Positions 20,577 to 63,159 of a stretch of 64,000 bases of DNA are shown piece after piece. The notes under the pieces were generated by a model. It was not told where the DNA came from, did no database searches, and saw only the letters and a list, made by a program, of their open reading frames with translations. The stretch is from assembly GCF_000711695.1 (NCBI RefSeq), contig NW_013546937.1, positions 17,352-81,351 of the forward strand. Reading direction: 5' to 3'. Made by a program: the position numbers and the translations under genes. Source of the DNA: Tilletiaria anomala UBC 951 (lineage: Eukaryota; Basidiomycota; Exobasidiomycetes; Georgefischeriales; Tilletiariaceae). The number at the start of each line of letters is the position of its first letter. Position 1 is the first letter of the stretch.

Positions 20577-22492
20577 CTAGATCCAATCATCGTCTGAGTC
20601 ATCCATGTCAGCATCCGCAATCTCTTTTGCTAGCTCCCTCTCCCGTTCCCGCGCAGACGCAGCTTTGGCAAGTTCGGCCTTGTGGTAGTTGAGGGGATAG
20701 CGCATTGCCTACAGTAGTTATATAGGGGATGTTAGAATGAGCCTGCAAGCGCAACGTCTACCCAAATGGCTGCACGCACCTTAAGCGAGTCGTTATGCAG
20801 TTGCAAGCAGAAATTGATGCGCTGTTGAAACTGCACCTGTGGCTCGTTTGTCGCGTACACGTCCATCTTTTCCCTGCTCTCCATCCAGCCCTTTTCATGC
20901 TCAACTTTCGCCTCGATCACACCATCCCTAATCGCCTTGGCAACAATGTACTCTGCATCCTCCTCGCTCTCGAGGTGTAGCTTCTTTGTGATATCCTGGA
21001 GCGAGATGCGCGAGTAGGCCAGTGAGATCATGCGAATGCCAGTCTTAATGACATTGTGGCGCAGACGAAGGATGAGAGAGTAGGTCTTATCTTGGTGGAA
21101 AAGGCTCTCGTGACGCGACAGTGCCGACTGGAACAGATTCAGATCACCCACGCGGACAGCTGCGAAATAAACAAGCTCAGTGTTGGTGCTGTCACAGACG
21201 ATGTCACAGGCTATTCAAGACGATACTCACCCTGAACAATCTCAAGGTAGGGCGCAAGTGGTTTCTTGAGCGCGTCGATGCGGAAAATGCTGCGGTCTGG
21301 AATATCGCCCATGAGAAGCTCGACGACGACAAAGAACTTGTGCGCAGACTGCAAAAACCCGGCGGCGCTTTGGTATGGCATGGACACGGCGCCAGCCGCC
21401 GCGCTCGCAGTGGTCGTCGTCGGTTGTGGGGCACGGCGGATAGCTTGTTGCAGATGCGAGTGCGCCTCGGTGTAGTTGAGCTGCACGGCACGGATGCGAC
21501 CGACATAGTAGTCAAAGCGAGCGATCTGGCCATTGGAGGCCTGTGAACGCGGGAAGGGCGCGCGAGCAACCAGCTTGTCGGCTTGGTCGTAGAGGTTCGA
21601 CTCTACGAGATAGCATCGTAGCAGCAGGTTGATGATCGTCGCGGTCGTCTCTGCCTCATGACGCAGGGACGCAGTCCGGTGTTGAGCGAGCAAAAAGCCG
21701 CGCTCGCCAGCCAGAGCTTCGCCTTTACCGTCCTTGAGCTTGAGAAGCTCGACGCCACGCCCGATATAGTAGATGACCTTGGCGCCGAGAAGGTCCAAGC
21801 TGCGGCGGTTTGCGGCGACGATGTTCGCGAACGTGGAGCGTGCCAACGCAAGGGAGTCAGGAAGTTTGCTCGAGTCGAGCAAATAGATGGTGACAAGCAA
21901 GCTCAGATAGGCTTCCAGCTCCTGCGTTGCTTCAGGGATCGGCTGATGGGGCTGCTCGAATGGCTTCTTTTCCTTTTCCGCTTTCTTCTTGGGTTCGGCC
22001 TTGTCCTTGCTATCTGACTTGCCGTCTTTATCCTTCTTGTCCGCCTTGATGTCAGGGTCTACCGCCATGGCATCTGCATCTGCTGCCTTGCTAGCAGGAG
22101 TAGTTGGGGGAGGCGGTACATATGGCTCGGGAAGGACGGACAGGAGTTGAGTAGCAAGAGGCGAGCCTGAGGAAAGTGCACGCCATGCTCGTGTCAATCG
22201 CGAGCGGGCTCATAAGATGCTCCAAGTACTCACCTGGCTGGAGACCCTCCTTGACTGCCGTGGCGAGAACATTCGAGTAGAGCGTGAGACGCTTGCGGGT
22301 GTAAGGCAGTGTGCGCAATATCCTTGCCGTGAAGCGAGGCTCCATGTGTGTGACGCTGCGCTCAATCAATGCGAGGTTCTGGCGGAGCAGGACGAGCAGC
22401 TGAACCTGAGGGGGCGTCGTCGGCGCGGCCTCGCTGGCCGCCTTTTCCGGCGCTTTCGCGTCCGCTGCCTTCATTTCGGTGTCTGCGGACAT
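20577..22492 (-). CDS. RPN3: 26S proteasome regulatory subunit Rpn3 (PSMD3)
   Basis: Four exons: 22492-22234, 22166-21231, 21159-20780, 20708-20577, about 568 residues. The chain runs from [12 protein letters not shown] through a TPR/PCI-type helical region ([58 protein letters not shown]) to the PCI winged helix ([18 protein letters not shown]) and the C-terminal [25 protein letters not shown] and an acidic DDSDDDWI end. These are signature Rpn3 segments. Rpn3 is a lid subunit that positions Rpn11 and helps assemble the 19S particle in nucleus and cytosol. A Lys/Asp-rich charged insert occupies roughly residues 110-165. It is divergent from GPN3 with 423 bases between the starts. Confidence 0.95.
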
Positions 22493-55016: not shown

Positions 55017-56675
55017 TCAAATACGTGGTTTTGGTATCTGCTCATGTAGATGCTGCTGTTGATCATTTGGAGTAGGCCCGACATCTCCTCCACTGTTCTC
55101 CTCCCGGCTTTGGCCTTCGTCTTCTTTTTCGACCTCCTCCCCTTCATCGAAGCCAGTTAAGTAACCTCTTTGACCCTCATTGGCTTCCTGCTCCCTCGCA
55201 ACTTTCTCCTCTTCCCTCAACGCGTCTCTGTCCCTCTCATCACTCTTGCTCCACATTCGGTACTCCCCTACCTCTTTCTTCGTCTCTCCATGTACGATCC
55301 ACGCGAGGAAGATGGGCCAAATGCTCTTTTCCCGCGAGAGAGTCACCTCCGCGAGCTGTTGTGCGACTCCTCGGTCGCGCGCCTTACCTTCGGCAGCAGC
55401 ACCGTGGCTCGGCATATACGCCTCGCCTCCGCGCGTAGCCTTATCGCCGTCTTGCGAGTCTGTGAAGCCTGTGCCGTTGCCTGACTGGAAGGCATTTACG
55501 TGCGCGCACCTTGGCCAGTTTGGCTCCACACGCGGGTTAATTCGGAGCGATTGGACGCGAGAAGTGCTGCAATCGAGCGTGGTGAGGTATCGCTCCATCA
55601 TCTCACTGAGGACAGACAGGATCGAACGTGGCGTTAGTACCCATGGGGTGAGCTAACGATAACCACCCGCACAATACGTACGGCCCCATAGTCTCGTCAT
55701 CAACAAAGCCAAAGTACATGAACGGTGTTGTTCGTGTGTTCTCCCTGGCGCGGCACTCATTGTCCGGACGCGCAAGACTGAAGAGTGGGTGGAAATACCA
55801 TTCGAGCCACTCTGAGCCAGGTCCATATGGTAAGTCGAATCCGAGACCAATGTTGACGCAGCGGAAGATCTTCTCCTCGACCAGCGGCCGTGCAACAAGC
55901 TCCTCCATTGCGAAGCGTGCTGCTAGGCTGGTCGGGTGATTGCGCCAATGCGCATTGCCCGAACATACGGTCATGAAGCGGTTGACACGACGCGTGCTAC
56001 TGCTGCTGGCGCGGTTGGAAGACACCGCCGACGACGGATATGCTTCATTCGCCACAAATTCGGGCTCGAGGAGGACGTGCAGATGCCCACCAAGTGAATG
56101 TCCCATAATGGTCAATTCGATCTGGCGCGCTCTCGCGACCCCGCCAGGCATCAGTCTCGCGCACTCTTCGCGGGCGTGCAGCACGATAGCCTTGAGGTCT
56201 TTCCTCCCCCAGCTCTGTGTCAGATCTTCCGATTCGGGACATTCGCGCAGAGCCGCATCGTATGCCTGGTTGTACTCATCTTCACCTGCTTCCCCTCTCG
56301 CCTTGGCAGCTGTGAGGATGCGCTGCGTGTGCTCAGGGAATGAAGAGCCCGAGTAGCGGTAATCAAAGGTGAAAGCTAGGACGCAGTGCTGTGCGGCCCA
56401 TCTGCAAGCCGCAATACGACACAGCCAAAGCGGATGAAATAAGTTTCTCTTCTACATTGCGCTCATTGATGCACAAAACTTGCACTTGCTAGTTCGCACC
56501 TGCTAAAGTCATGGTAAAACCGTGCGTGAACACCGGTCGCATTCGCGGTTACAAGGATCGCTCGAATGGTGCTCGGGTCCTGGGGCCGGAAAATATGAGC
56601 GGCGAGCGGAAAGCCATCTTCAGCTTTGACTGTAAGCGCTTCGCCAATCGCACTGGTGGTAAATGTCGTGGACAT
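55017..56675 (-). CDS. Alpha/beta hydrolase (COG4757-like)
   Basis: Three exons: 56675-56500, 56401-55682, 55605-55017, giving 494 residues. The core shows a β-strand/oxyanion region (IRAILVTANATGVHARFYHD), FTFDYRYSGSS, a TQSWGRKDLKAIVLHAREE helix, the nucleophile elbow IMGHSLGGHLHVLL (Ser in GHSLGG), and FMYFGFVDDETMGP, where the DD is a candidate acid. The second intron uses GTACGT and an ACTAAC branch site and joins MGP to EMMERYLTTLDC. A His after this (CAHVNAF) could complete the triad. The C-terminal ~110 residues (after WPIFLAWIVH) are Glu/Gln-rich and likely disordered, unusual for the family. Substrate is unknown. Confidence 0.83.
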
Positions 56676-57379: not shown

Positions 57380-60300
57380 ATGGCGCGTACACCGGGAGCC
57401 AACAGTGGTGGCGGCGGCAATGCTCGAGGCTTCACCCTCTCGCACCAGCACGTCGCGCTCGAGTTGCGCTTCGACGGCATCGCGGAGGGCTACTCGGAAC
57501 TGACGATCGTCCCCACCGATCCCGACCTGAAAACTATGCACGTCAATTGCCGACAAGCAGGTGAGTGTCCTTCTTTATGGATATCTGTTGAGTGTAGTGA
57601 GAGATTAAAATACGCAGCCGAAGGCTCACAGTACCTTTTCGCGCTTCACTTCTGCAGACATCCGTTATGTCACTGTCAATTCGCAGCCAACATCCTACGC
57701 ATACAACGATCTCTTGTCGAACGTCACGCTCTCTAACGACAAGGACGTTCATCTCTATCCCGAGCTCAAGAGAAAGCTCTTTGCCGCTGCGAGTGATGGC
57801 AGCAATGGCGAGCTCAGCATCGCAATTTCTCCCGATGTTGGCATCCAAACTCTCAAAGAAAGGGTGGAGGCTGAGCAGGAATCGAAGGCTGACGCGCTGA
57901 AGGATACTTCCATGAATGGGTCCGCTCTGAGAGGCCAGTCAAATACGCAGGAACAAGGTCCCTCAGAGAATTCCGACAAGACCAAGACCGCGAATCGTGA
58001 GTCAAAGGTAGCGGAGGATGCTGGCAGGGAGGACGGCGCCCAAACAGAGGACGAATACGCGCCTCTGAAGGTCCGGATCTACTACTCGCTGCGCCATCCG
58101 TTGCACGGACTGCAGTTTGTCAAGGCGACGCCGGACGCGCCCTACCGTATTCCGCACATTTATAGTACACCAAGCTGCGCGGATTGGAGCCGCTGTTGGA
58201 CGCCTTGCCTTGACAGCCTCTGGGAGAGATGCACGTGGCAGCTGGACTTTGTCGTTCCGCGTTATCTCACCCCAGCAGCGTTGGGTGAAAGCACATCAGA
58301 TGACGAGGAGGATGTTGCCGACAACGACGCGGATGAAGTTGTTGTTGTCTGCTCAGGTGACCTCGTCGAAAAGACAGTGCATCCGCACTGCCCTTCCAAA
58401 ATCATTTTTTCGTATGAACAGGCAGCGCCTACGTCAGTCCAGCATATCGCTTTTGCAATCGGGCCTTTCAGCATGCACACTGTTGCTTCGCCCAGCAAGC
58501 AAACTCCGAAGAGCATTACTGGCTCGAACCCAAATTCCAACTCTAATTCCACAGATGCCGCCGCCGACGATTGCAGTCCACAGGTCATTGGATTCTGCTT
58601 CCCTGGGCGCGAGGAAGAGATGCAACACTCGATCGGATTTACGCGCCAAGCTTTCGACTTCGTATCGCGTGACTATGGGTCTTATCCATTTGGCTCGTTC
58701 AAGATGGTCTTTGTCGATGAGCCAATCAACGACTGCCACGCTGCGTCTACCATCGCTATCTGCTCGACCGATCTCCTTCACCCTCCGAGAATTGTTGATC
58801 AAGCGTACGAGACGCATCATGTCCTGTCGCACGCCATCGTCTTCCAGTGGATTGGCATCAATGTCACCCAACGCTCCTGGGCAGATATGTGGCTCATCCA
58901 CGGCATAAGCTTGCATATCACCAGTCTGTTCTTACGGAGAATATGGGGCAACAATGAGTACCGTCTCAGGCTGCGTAAGGACATGGAACGTCTCGTCGCC
59001 TGGGATATCGGCATGCCTCCCTTGTTCCAAGCGGGAATGACCGAGCCGCCGGATCCTGCTTTCCTGCCGTTTCTAAATCTCAAAGCGCCACTCGTGCTCT
59101 TCATCCTCGATCGGCGCTTGTCCAAGGTCAGCGCATCGTTGGGCCTCAGCAGAGCCATTAACAAGATATTTCTCGATGCTCTGACAGGAGAGCTGCAAGG
59201 CAGTGTGCTCAGCACAAGTCATTTCTTACGCCAGTGCCGCAAGCTAGGAGGTGTAGATTTGACCACCTTCACAGAGCAGTGGATCTACGGCTCGGGATGT
59301 CCACGCTTCTCCTTCACCGCTGCGTTCAATCGCAAGAAGCTCATCATCGAGATGACTATCAGACAGGACTGTCCGGCTGCCAACTTTGCTATGACGAACC
59401 CAAGCGACGCAATCTACTCGAACCCGATCGAGAAGTTCGAAGGGCAGATCACTGTCCGCATCCATGAGGCTGACGGTACGCCGTACGAGCACGTTATCGA
59501 TATCGATTCGCACGAGAAGCGCATCGATGTCCCTTTCAACACCAAGTACAAGCGTGTCAGGCGCAACACGAAGCGCTTCCAGGCGAGAAAGGAGGCCGCC
59601 GCTGCGGCTGCTGCCGGCGATGAAGAAGCCCGAGAAGCTATGGGCCTGATCGACCTTGGCTTCGTCTATGGCCAGTGGGAGGACGATTCGGAGCGCGAGG
59701 CTTGGCAGGTAGCTGATTGGACTGAGCAGGAAGAGCTCGATATGAGCTCCGCACCTTACGAGTGGATCCGCGTCGACCCAGACTGTGAATGGCTCGCTCT
59801 CATCCACTTCCAGCAAGAACCTTGGATGTGGATCTCCCAGCTGGAAAGAGATCGGGACGTCATTGCACAACTTTGCGCAGTCAATGCGCTTGCACAAATG
59901 CCATCCAAGGTCGTCAGCAGCATCCTCTGCCGCACCGTCCTTGTCGAAAAGTACTTCTTCCGAATACGAGTTGAAGCGGCACATGCCCTCGTCAATTGTG
60001 CTGTGCCGACTCTCGAGTATCTCGGCCTCTTCCACCTGCTCAAGCTCTTCCAGTCGCGCTACTGCCATCAACAGCCACCAGACTACGAAGCCGAAGGTCC
60101 TCTCGACATGCTCTTGATTCCGAAGGCCAACGACTTTTCTGACCTGCCGGAATACTTCTTGCGCAGGGCTATCCTTCACGCCATCAGCCGTGTGCGCAAT
60201 GAGCATGGTCGTCCCCTGAGCCAGGTCAAGCGCTTCCTCGTCAATGTCCTGCGATATAACGACAATTCTTCGAATCGCTTCGGTGATGACTTTTACATTG

Positions 60301-63159
60301 CCGGCCTCATAAACACCATCGCTGCTGCCTACATCCCTGCAGACTACAATCTCAACGCGCCACTCCCCCTACTCTCGGCTGAAGAACGCGAAGCAGATGC
60401 GTTGCTGCTGCAAGCAGCTGTAAACGAGATTGAGCGCTGCCGCGAACTGGATATGCTCGTACCCTCGTATCACAACATCATCTCCATCGCAGCGCTGGAC
60501 TTTCATCTGGCGACCATGATGGCCAATTTGCGGCCTGTCGACTTGCAGCTGTTCTTCGCCTACACGCGGCAGGGCAACTATGCTTCCCTGCGGGCCGTTG
60601 CATTCAACAGTCTTGTGCTGATGCGTGGCTTGCAGCACAAGGTCGTCGCGAGGTATCTCTTCGAGGTGCTTCGTTGTGACGAAAGTCGCGTGGTGCGGCG
60701 GACACTGGCCAGGGCGATGCTCGAGTCGCTTGCTGCGTCGGTTGCGACGAATGAGTATGGCGAACTCAAAGCCCGGACGATGTTTATCGAAGGGGATGCG
60801 GCAACAGCCGCCAGCGAGGCGGAGCGTGCGCGCGAGCAAGATCTCGACAATGTTCTGCGGACGCTCAGACGGGAAGTCGGGCGCTCAGCTGCCATCCGAG
60901 AGGGGTTCATGGCCGCACTGCTCTCTCCCACAGTCGACAGCGAAGCAAGATGGGCTCTGCTCAAGCTAGCAGAGCTGCTCTTCAAGCCGGCTGCAGAAAC
61001 GGACCTGCCCTTCCTACCGAAGGTCTCTGTGCATGTCCGCACGCTTTCCATGAGCGGAGCTGCAGAATTGGACACCCCAAGCACTGAAGGATTCCGTCTC
61101 AAGCTTGTTCGCAGTGCAGCCGAGCCGACGCCAGGTGAGTCCGAACCTAGCCTTACCCTTTGTGTGCTTGCTTTGTTAAACTGCAGTTCTGGCCATCATC
61201 AGCAACAGAGCCATCTGCGTCCACGCCGCGAGTAGCATTCGATGTTACACAAGAGAAAGTGCTGCCCAAGTTTACTCTTAAGCCAAAGAAGCCGAAGAAA
61301 GCAAAGCCGGCAGCACCCGAGCAGGCATCAGGCATGTCGACGATGGATGTGACAGCTTGCCGCAATTGCTTGAAGAAGCTCTTCGAGAGCCGGCATGCCC
61401 CGCTCTTTCTCAACCCCGTCGATCCTGTGCGAGATCAGGCGCCGAACTATTTTGAAGTCATATCGGAACCGATGGATCTCAATTCGATTATGAACAAGCT
61501 TAATGCGGGAATGTACAAGGATCGCTTTGACTTCAAGAGCGATTTTGAACTGCTCGTGCGCAATGCGAAGACGTACACACCGAACCCGGAAGCATATGTT
61601 CACCAAGAAGCAGCGGCGCTGGAGAAGGACTTCAACCGCCATTGGAACAGGATCACGCGAACACTGGAGCAAGCTGAGGCTAAACACCACAAACAGACTG
61701 AGGCCTCCGAGGGCATGGCCAACGGCGCCTCCATCGCCGCCGCCGCTCCTGCACAGGAGGAGCGTCAAGCACCTACAGCGGCAGCAGCCTCAGTTCCAGC
61801 ACCAGCACCACCATTAGCAACAGCAGCTCCGCCACCACCAGCGCAATCAACTCGCATCACCACCTCGATGCCCCCACCTATCCACATTCCCTCTGCATCA
61901 CCAGCACCATCGCTGCCGACAACAAAGGCGTCCGGGTCTGGTCTTGGGTTGAAGCTGAAGCTGAAGCCCAAGGTGAGCGTCTCTGGCGGCTCAGCACCTG
62001 CGCCAACATCTGTCGCTACTCCGCCAAAAGAGATCAAGCTGAAGCTCAAGTCAGCAACGCCTGTGTCTGAGCGGAAAGCGTCGCCGGCTCCCGCCGCTGC
62101 GGCTGTTGCTGCAAGGGTCCCTTCTACCAAAGGCACTTCATCTCCGGCACCAAGTCCGGCTCCGGCCAAGGCATTGTCCAAGGCGCCGAGCCCTGCGCCT
62201 CCCAAGGCCAATGCGATGCCCGCAGCATCCTCGGACCCGGTGGCTGCGGCGGGCAAGGAGCCGATGAATTCAAAGCGGTGCAAGTCGCTGTTGCAAACGA
62301 TGAAGAGGATGTCGGAGGCTGCGTTCTTTTTGCGCCCGGTGGACCCGGTCAAGGATGGCGTGCCGACGTGAGTGATGGCACGTGCGCTCTCAGGGAGAGC
62401 AAAAGGAGGCCTGCGAGCACTAACTTGATTCATTCTGACGGTCTCGGACTGAGCAGCTACTACGACGAAATCAAGCATCCAATGGATTTTGGCACGATGG
62501 AAAAGAAGCTGAACGACAATGCGTACTCGCGTATGTCCGAGTTTGCGGCGGACATGCAACTGGTGTTTGGGAACGCGCGCACGTTCAACCCGGTAGGGAC
62601 ACTACCACACAACTGGGCAAACGTGTGCGAGCAGGCGTTCCACAGGGAGTGGGCCAAGGCGCTGGTCCCGCGGCTGGAGTACGTCGAGAAGCGCGCTCTC
62701 CAGGGCCTGCTGACGCGGCTCAAGGCGAACGTCGGTGTCTCTGGGATATTCCTGCATGCGGTAGACCCGGTCGCGCTGGGGATACCGCACTACCACGATG
62801 TGATTCCCAAGGCGGACGCGCGCGACCTGGGCCTGATCGAGAACAAACTCAAGGGGGATAGGTACGGGAGCATGCGCGCGTTCACTGAGGACGTGCAGCT
62901 CATGGTGCAGAATGCTCGCACCTTCAACGCTGGAGATGACGGCGTGCTCACGCTGATCGATGCATTTGAGCGGCTGTACAAGAAGGAGCTCAGCGGCGTG
63001 CGCAGCGCGTTGTCGTCGGCAGGAGGAGGGGGAGGCGGCGCGTCATCGTCATCGACTATGGCGGGTATGAAGAGAAAGTCGGAGAGCAATGGTGGCGGTA
63101 GTGGTGCCTCTGCTTCTCATGGCGCTGGCGATTCGCACAAGAAGGCCAAGACTTCATGA
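57380..63159 (+). CDS. TAF2: TFIID subunit TAF2 with three C-terminal bromodomain-like modules
   Basis: Four exons: 57380-57560, 57658-61134, 61203-62367, 62457-63159, giving about 1841 residues. The N-terminus (GFTLSHQHVALELRFDGIAE, DIRYVTVNSQPTSYAYNDLL) and the M1-aminopeptidase-like body (FGSFKMVFVDEP, HVLSHAIVFQWIGINV, ADMWLIHGISLHITSLF) are TAF2. The catalytic HExxH is not present, as in other TAF2. HEAT-like repeats follow to about residue 1210. Exons 3-4 add module 1 (LFLNPVDPVRDQAPNYFEVI, EPMDLNSIMNKLN), Ala/Pro-rich linkers with KLKLKLK motifs, module 2 (FFLRPVDPVKDGVPTYYDEI, HPMDFGTMEKKLN) and module 3 (FLHAVDPVALGIPHYHDVIP). Phases close across all junctions, so this looks like one protein. 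The protein ends in a Ser/Gly/Lys-rich tail. Confidence 0.9.

Follow-up and report, generated by a model that had tools for sequence, protein, structure and literature searches.

Our analysis of a 64,000 nucleotide window (the whole stretch of DNA that was analysed, positions 17352-81351 of contig C85) from the 18.4 Mb genome of Tilletiaria anomala UBC 951 has identified a gene that probably encodes the TFIID subunit TAF2 with a C-terminal extension of three bromodomains. Bromodomains commonly recognise acetylated histones. Acetylated promoters are found by TFIID through the bromodomains of TAF1 in animals, and through Bdf1 and Taf14 in budding yeast. In the present fungus, the chromatin-reading part of TFIID appears to sit on TAF2 instead of TAF1. 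The features on which this reading is based are as follows.

57380-63159, plus strand: predicted TAF2 gene in four exons (57380-57560, 57658-61134, 61203-62367 and 62457-63159), encoding 1841 aa
57380-57560 and 57658-61134, plus strand: TAF2 body, exons 1-2 (residues 1-1220), with M1-aminopeptidase-like, Ig-like and TPR domains
57561-57657, plus strand: first intron, also with a GTGAGT donor
61135-61202, plus strand: predicted intron between the body and the tail with the bromodomains (GTGAGT..ATCAG, 68 nt), placed by consensus and frame only
61316-61678, plus strand: bromodomain 1, residues ~1258-1378 (PF00439, 65.2 bits, E 5.5e-18), with Thr1345 at the anchor
61943-61966, plus strand: ET-binding-like motif LGLKLKLK, residues 1467-1474 (consensus from PMC7442819, PMC13373324)
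62030-62050, plus strand: ET-binding-like motif EIKLKLK, residues 1496-1502, a consensus match
62261-62667, plus strand: bromodomain 2, residues 1573-1678, split by an intron (74.0 bits after splicing, E 9.8e-21), with anchor Asn1652
62368-62456, plus strand: intron within bromodomain 2 (GTGAGT..AGCAG, 89 nt), containing CTAAC
62668-63018, plus strand: bromodomain 3, residues 1679 to ~1795 (41.4 bits, E 1.4e-10), with anchor Asn1765
63019-63159, plus strand: low-complexity C-terminal tail with the basic patches KRK and HKKAK, including the stop codon

The four-exon joined frame, a splice prediction made from the sequence, yields 1841 residues without an internal stop. Its body is matched above the respective cut-offs by the Pfam models PF01433, PF25316 and PF25577, and the TAF2 models cover residues ~389-1086, with scores of 149.7 bits for TPR_TAF2_C, 112 bits for TAF2_3rd and 28.2 bits (cut-off 27.7) for Peptidase_M1. 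TPR_TAF2_C has a single match in the whole genome, which is located within this body. The top match in the PDB is the Taf2 chain 6hqa, which we take to be a Komagataella protein (424.4 bits; aligned residues 15-1087), and human TAF2 is second (261.6 bits). HExxH is the motif of active M1 aminopeptidases; at this position the M1 region of the predicted protein reads LSHAIVFQW, as is expected in TAF2. An NCBIfam search returned weak aminopeptidase matches only, all of them below the cut-off. Searches for relatives gave three and four pattern matches in viral_contigs (with the last exon and the TAF2 body as queries, respectively) and 21 in genome_contigs (with the TAF2 body), none of which was confirmed.

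A preliminary description of this region had placed three bromodomain modules in frame behind the TAF2 body and had proposed a profile search of them. The PF00439 scores of the modules all lie above the curated threshold of 21.7 bits and exclude a chance motif as their source. Upstream of them, the TAF2-specific Pfam models and the 6hqa match identify the body as TAF2, and the modules, which had been described as part of the same protein, have the same reading direction and can be linked to this body in frame by consensus introns. No part of the bromodomain tail is matched by the TAF2 chains of solved structures (yeast 6hqa and human). Modules 1 and 2 are separated by a linker of ~200 residues, and modules 2 and 3 abut; the bounds used in comparisons were residues 1260-1375, 1573-1678 and 1679-1793.

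Across the genome, PF00439 matches 16 stretches on 10 contigs, three of which are those of TAF2. The others are found in a BET protein on C76, beside PHD-like frames on C6 (as in Brpf/Nto1), beside a Snf2-type helicase frame on C9, in a BAH-bromodomain frame on C18, in a Gcn5-like acetyltransferase frame on C118, and in further frames on C8, C31, C95 and C3. TAF1 is located on contig C3 (318492-320907), where DUF3591 is matched in seven stretches, six of them above the cut-off, together with a weak, partial match to the zinc knuckle (318492-318548; 24.3 bits against 22). The preliminary description had raised the bromodomain status of TAF1 in the same genome, and none was detectable with PF00439 in this gene, the lone matching stretch of C3 lying at 21110, ~297 kb away. 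In the BET gene on C76, PF00439 matches twice, and an ET domain containing EIELDIDDL is the single match to PF17035 in the genome. The bromodomains of the window were also considered as part of a BET gene, a candidate rejected on the lack of an ET match in the TAF2 protein; a loss of Bdf1 was likewise rejected, the BET gene being present. Because the genome encodes this two-bromodomain BET protein with an ET domain, the TAF2 bromodomains represent an addition and not a replacement for Bdf1. The earlier suggestion of a different solution for linking TFIID to acetylated nucleosomes is thus retained in part, with bromodomains on TAF2 and none detected on TAF1, and has to be amended in that the reader is an added one. 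YEATS domains are matched in two stretches of one locus (C47), at which PF17035 has no match; close to this locus lies an open frame whose end appears, by eye, to be a coiled coil, as found in Yaf9/GAS41. The ET domain of Taf14 presumably matches PF17035, and since the sole YEATS locus lacks an ET match, a Taf14-like YEATS-ET protein was not detected in the genome by this model, which may miss some ET domains of the YEATS type. Because the profile searches proceed exon by exon, domains that are small, split by introns or very diverged could be missed.

The linker between modules 1 and 2 is disordered and of low complexity (Ala 49, Pro 36 and Ser 25 of 201 residues), and it contains both of the ET-binding-like motifs listed above. 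The ligand of the Taf14 ET domain is described as hydrophobic-x-hydrophobic-plus-hydrophobic-plus-hydrophobic (PMC7442819) and that of the BET ET domain as hydrophobic-plus-hydrophobic-plus (PMC13373324); EIKLKLK resembles EIKLKI, with which the NSD3 peptide ligand of the BRD4 ET domain starts (PMC5701133). When the linker was shuffled 20,000 times, a test that ignores its possible repetitiveness, no shuffle contained two six-residue alternating motifs (mean 0.00065), and a single Taf14-type motif was reached in 0.045%. Outside the TAF2 frame, the six-residue motif was absent from both 18,690 and 10,266 residues of long frames, non-coding frames included. In TAF1, the last frame that is visible has APPKLKLKLKR at its end (L016:4798-5055, contig C3, minus strand), and its true end could lie further on, because a possible GT donor overlaps the visible one. 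With two KLKLK motifs in the linker and KLKLKLKR at the visible end of TAF1, the sole detected BET protein may dock on the TAF2 tail by its ET domain, a step that we propose with less confidence than the reading of acetyl-lysine.

These observations also bear on an alternative in which the tail serves mainly for docking: KLKLK would recruit the BET protein to TFIID, with the bromodomains adding only avidity. We consider this unlikely, even though the linker motifs far exceed the shuffled expectation, TAF1 visibly ends in a similar run, the BET gene keeps its ET domain with EIELDIDDL, and the ET domain of yeast Bdf1 binds such motifs in Taf7, which supports the recruitment of TFIID (PMC13373324). 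Four-residue ET motifs, however, are frequent (2418 in 1253 yeast nuclear proteins; PMC13373324), and a motif of Sth1 that is bound by Taf14 is described as not bound by the ET domains of yeast Bdf1 and Bdf2 (PMC7442819). Similar six-residue runs are also found in other frames of this genome (viz. a forkhead protein with LKFKLK and a C6 frame with LKLKLK), and the DNA pattern for KLKLK occurs at 65 sites genome-wide against 36 for the reversed control. Two of the 65 sites are those of TAF2, frames were read around 30 and another 22 (in 20 further stretches), and 11 were left out; Pfam searches of seven of these frames returned forkhead, C1 (below the cut-off), quinolinate phosphoribosyltransferase and radical SAM, with three frames lacking a match. 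KLKLK is thus not confined to TFIID, and docking through it is proposed as a possibility only. The TAF7 open frame of the same genome (666 aa; L083, contig C28, minus strand) contains LKVR, FKFK and RLKLSLK, the first and last of which are located in its long N-terminal region; the Bdf1-binding part of yeast Taf7 is also its N-terminal region (PMC13373324). Since TAF7 keeps LKVR, a shift of docking away from it cannot be claimed. The forkhead protein mentioned above (L041:1-2712, contig C4, minus strand) carries KLKFKLKK and represents another possible ET ligand.

A more extensive account, which we regard as tentative and rather doubtful, is that of a rewired TFIID: TAF1 would have lost, or never had, its bromodomains and would end in an ET-binding motif, TAF2 would have gained three bromodomains and, in the linker among them, two more ET motifs, Taf14 would be absent, and the tails of TAF2 and TAF1 would jointly recruit the BET protein, resulting in five bromodomains per TFIID, three of them in cis and two in trans.

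The Asn that anchors acetyl-lysine in bromodomains closes the motif N-A-x-x-(Y/F)-N, and in BRD4 the binding pocket involves the WPF shelf, Tyr97, Asn140 and a gatekeeper residue. Visual inspection of alignments of the modules with BRD4, with polybromo and with one another shows Asn at the anchor position of modules 2 and 3 and Thr1345 at that of module 1 (NAKTYT). The ZA-loop Tyr is kept in all three modules (NYF, TYY and HYH), the Trp of the WPF shelf is absent from all three (PLF, AFF and GIF), and the gatekeeper position of module 3 holds an aliphatic residue (all by eye). In module 3, the PMD region is replaced by a stretch that is two residues longer (KADARD), PMD itself giving way to ADARD. 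Among 13 bromodomain stretches outside TAF2, three stop before the anchor, and Asn is present, by eye, in nine of the ten that show this site. Module 3 is further predicted to adopt a bromodomain fold. Its best AlphaFold2 model, from a three-row alignment, has a pLDDT of 82.5 and a pTM of 0.77, and the other four have pLDDT values of 81.8, 76.1, 51.1 and 48.9, two of the five models thus being poor. In a Foldseek search with module 3, all of the 50 PDB matches listed, out of 219 with E up to 0.001, are entries of CREBBP, EP300/p300, Candida Bdf1, BRD3, BRD4 or BRDT, with TM-scores of 0.70-0.81 for the first three matches listed. A single-sequence fold of the last exon gave a useless model (pLDDT 41.9).

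The preliminary description had reported the asparagine site as retained, which holds for modules 2 and 3 and fails for module 1, where NAKTYT has Thr at the functional position. It had also suggested that module 3 may be a diverged, non-binding copy, a view that the anchor Asn, the ZA-loop Tyr, the aliphatic gatekeeper and the predicted fold of this module do not support; because module 1, and not module 3, lacks the anchor Asn, the wrong module had, judged by this residue, been picked as the likely non-binder. An alternative that we judge improbable is that the bromodomains do not read histone acetylation at all and are structural or protein-protein modules, for example for acetylated transcription factors or other parts of TFIID. 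The Thr at the anchor of module 1, the missing PMD of module 3 and the missing shelf Trp of all three modules are in its favour. Against it, modules 2 and 3 have both Asn at the anchor and Tyr in the ZA loop, and Asn also prevails at this site in the other bromodomain stretches of the genome.

The intron at 62368-62456 is well supported, because splicing restores module 2 across the junction: the exon on its 3' side begins at position 29 of the PF00439 profile, the spliced module spans profile positions 1-78, and the score of the second part alone is 56.3 bits. The same GTGAGT donor is shared by all three introns of the predicted TAF2 gene. Near the junction between the body and the tail there are 64 in-frame GT-AG pairs, nine of which involve donor 61135, the sole GTGAGT donor there; its nearest acceptors, 61202 and 61208, are two residues apart. 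In the stretch 61187-61235 a shorter product could also end: splicing to acceptor 61186 (TGCAG), or leaving the intron in place, would produce a TAF2 of 1250 or 1252 residues that stops before the bromodomains, and this could be a natural, regulated short isoform. From 61203 to the first ATG, codon usage weakly favours the bromodomain frame (-0.007 against -0.168 and -0.294 log2 units per codon), and this frame is also favoured across modules 1 to 3; in the linker (61700-62250) it is not the best frame (-0.02 against 0.011 for another frame). A scan of 60900-61400 for bacterial promoters and terminators found none, the bacterial models being uninformative for a fungus. A reading as two genes, in which TAF2 ends at 61235 (unspliced) or by way of 61186 and a separate three-bromodomain protein starts from the ATG at 61334, is very unlikely: read-through of donor 61135 does give a TAF2 of 1252 residues, near the 1199 of human TAF2, and in-frame ATGs are present at 61334 and 61343, but only 98 nt would be left between both reading frames, a GTGAGT-AG intron links the TAF2 frame to the bromodomain frame, and the TAF2 orthologue of Cryptococcus neoformans seems to be bromodomain-bearing too (PMC12844337).

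The preferred reading, a TAF2 with a three-bromodomain extension, can be compared with several known systems. Like the double bromodomain of human TAF1, the extension is a predicted C-terminal acetyl-lysine reader of more than one module fused to a TFIID subunit; it differs in being located on TAF2, in having three modules with a linker after the first, and in that TAF1 of this genome has none detected. In yeast, Taf14 binds the C-terminal tail of Taf2 (PMC9177701, PMC6220335), for which both the ET and the YEATS domain of Taf14 are used (PMC9177701). The TAF2 C-terminus is thus, in yeast and apparently also here, the point at which an acyl-lysine reader meets TFIID (PMC9177701, PMC6220335). 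The putative reader described here, in contrast, is covalently part of TAF2 and of the bromodomain type, and a YEATS-ET protein was not detected in the genome. Bdf1 and other BET proteins are similar in having tandem bromodomains linked to TFIID and differ in their ET domain, which in this genome is encoded by the separate gene on C76. The TAF2 orthologue of Cryptococcus neoformans, CNAG_03273, is described as aligned to Spt7 by its bromodomain only (PMC12844337, 2026), a likeness compared here by description and not by sequence; from this alignment statement we infer that the Cryptococcus TAF2 carries a bromodomain. The fusion is therefore probably not unique, and the lineage restriction in the preliminary description, according to which this lineage places its readers on TAF2, probably has to be widened. 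In the literature searched, no published description of TAF2 bromodomains was found, the passage in PMC12844337 being the nearest. The parts are known, and their placement on TAF2 is implied for Cryptococcus and is likely to be visible in protein databases.

In mechanistic terms, TAF2 would enter TFIID by way of its conserved body. The anchor Asn of modules 2 and 3 is normal, and these two would bind acetyl-lysine on the tails of promoter nucleosomes; module 1, with Thr at this position, may bind weakly or have another ligand. The TAF2 lobe would then be the side on which TFIID reads acetylation. In budding yeast the acyl-lysine reader Taf14 is attached there, to the TAF2 tail, and because the yeast tail binds Taf14 this is a plausible site for a reader (PMC9177701). 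If correct, the arrangement represents a third layout, in which the reader function is conserved while the TFIID subunit that carries it moves, and it would allow one to ask, in a natural setting, whether it makes a difference where in TFIID the reader is placed.

The three modules share ~34% pairwise identity, and the best match of each among the bromodomain stretches of the genome is another TAF2 module (70.9 bits for modules 1 and 2, 57.4 bits for modules 2 and 3, and 45.1 bits for modules 1 and 3). The best score between a TAF2 module and a stretch outside TAF2 is 57.0 bits (module 2 with C31 and C95), a small margin below that of modules 2 and 3, and module 1 is closer to C31 (50.1 bits) and C95 (49.3 bits) than to module 3; the compared stretches outside TAF2 are partial (unspliced), which lowers their scores. 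Since each module has its best match within TAF2, the three modules likely arose by internal duplication of one ancestral module. On the minus strand, at 55603-56451, an open frame contains a motif resembling a nucleophile elbow (GHSLGG, by eye), and it possibly encodes an alpha/beta hydrolase.
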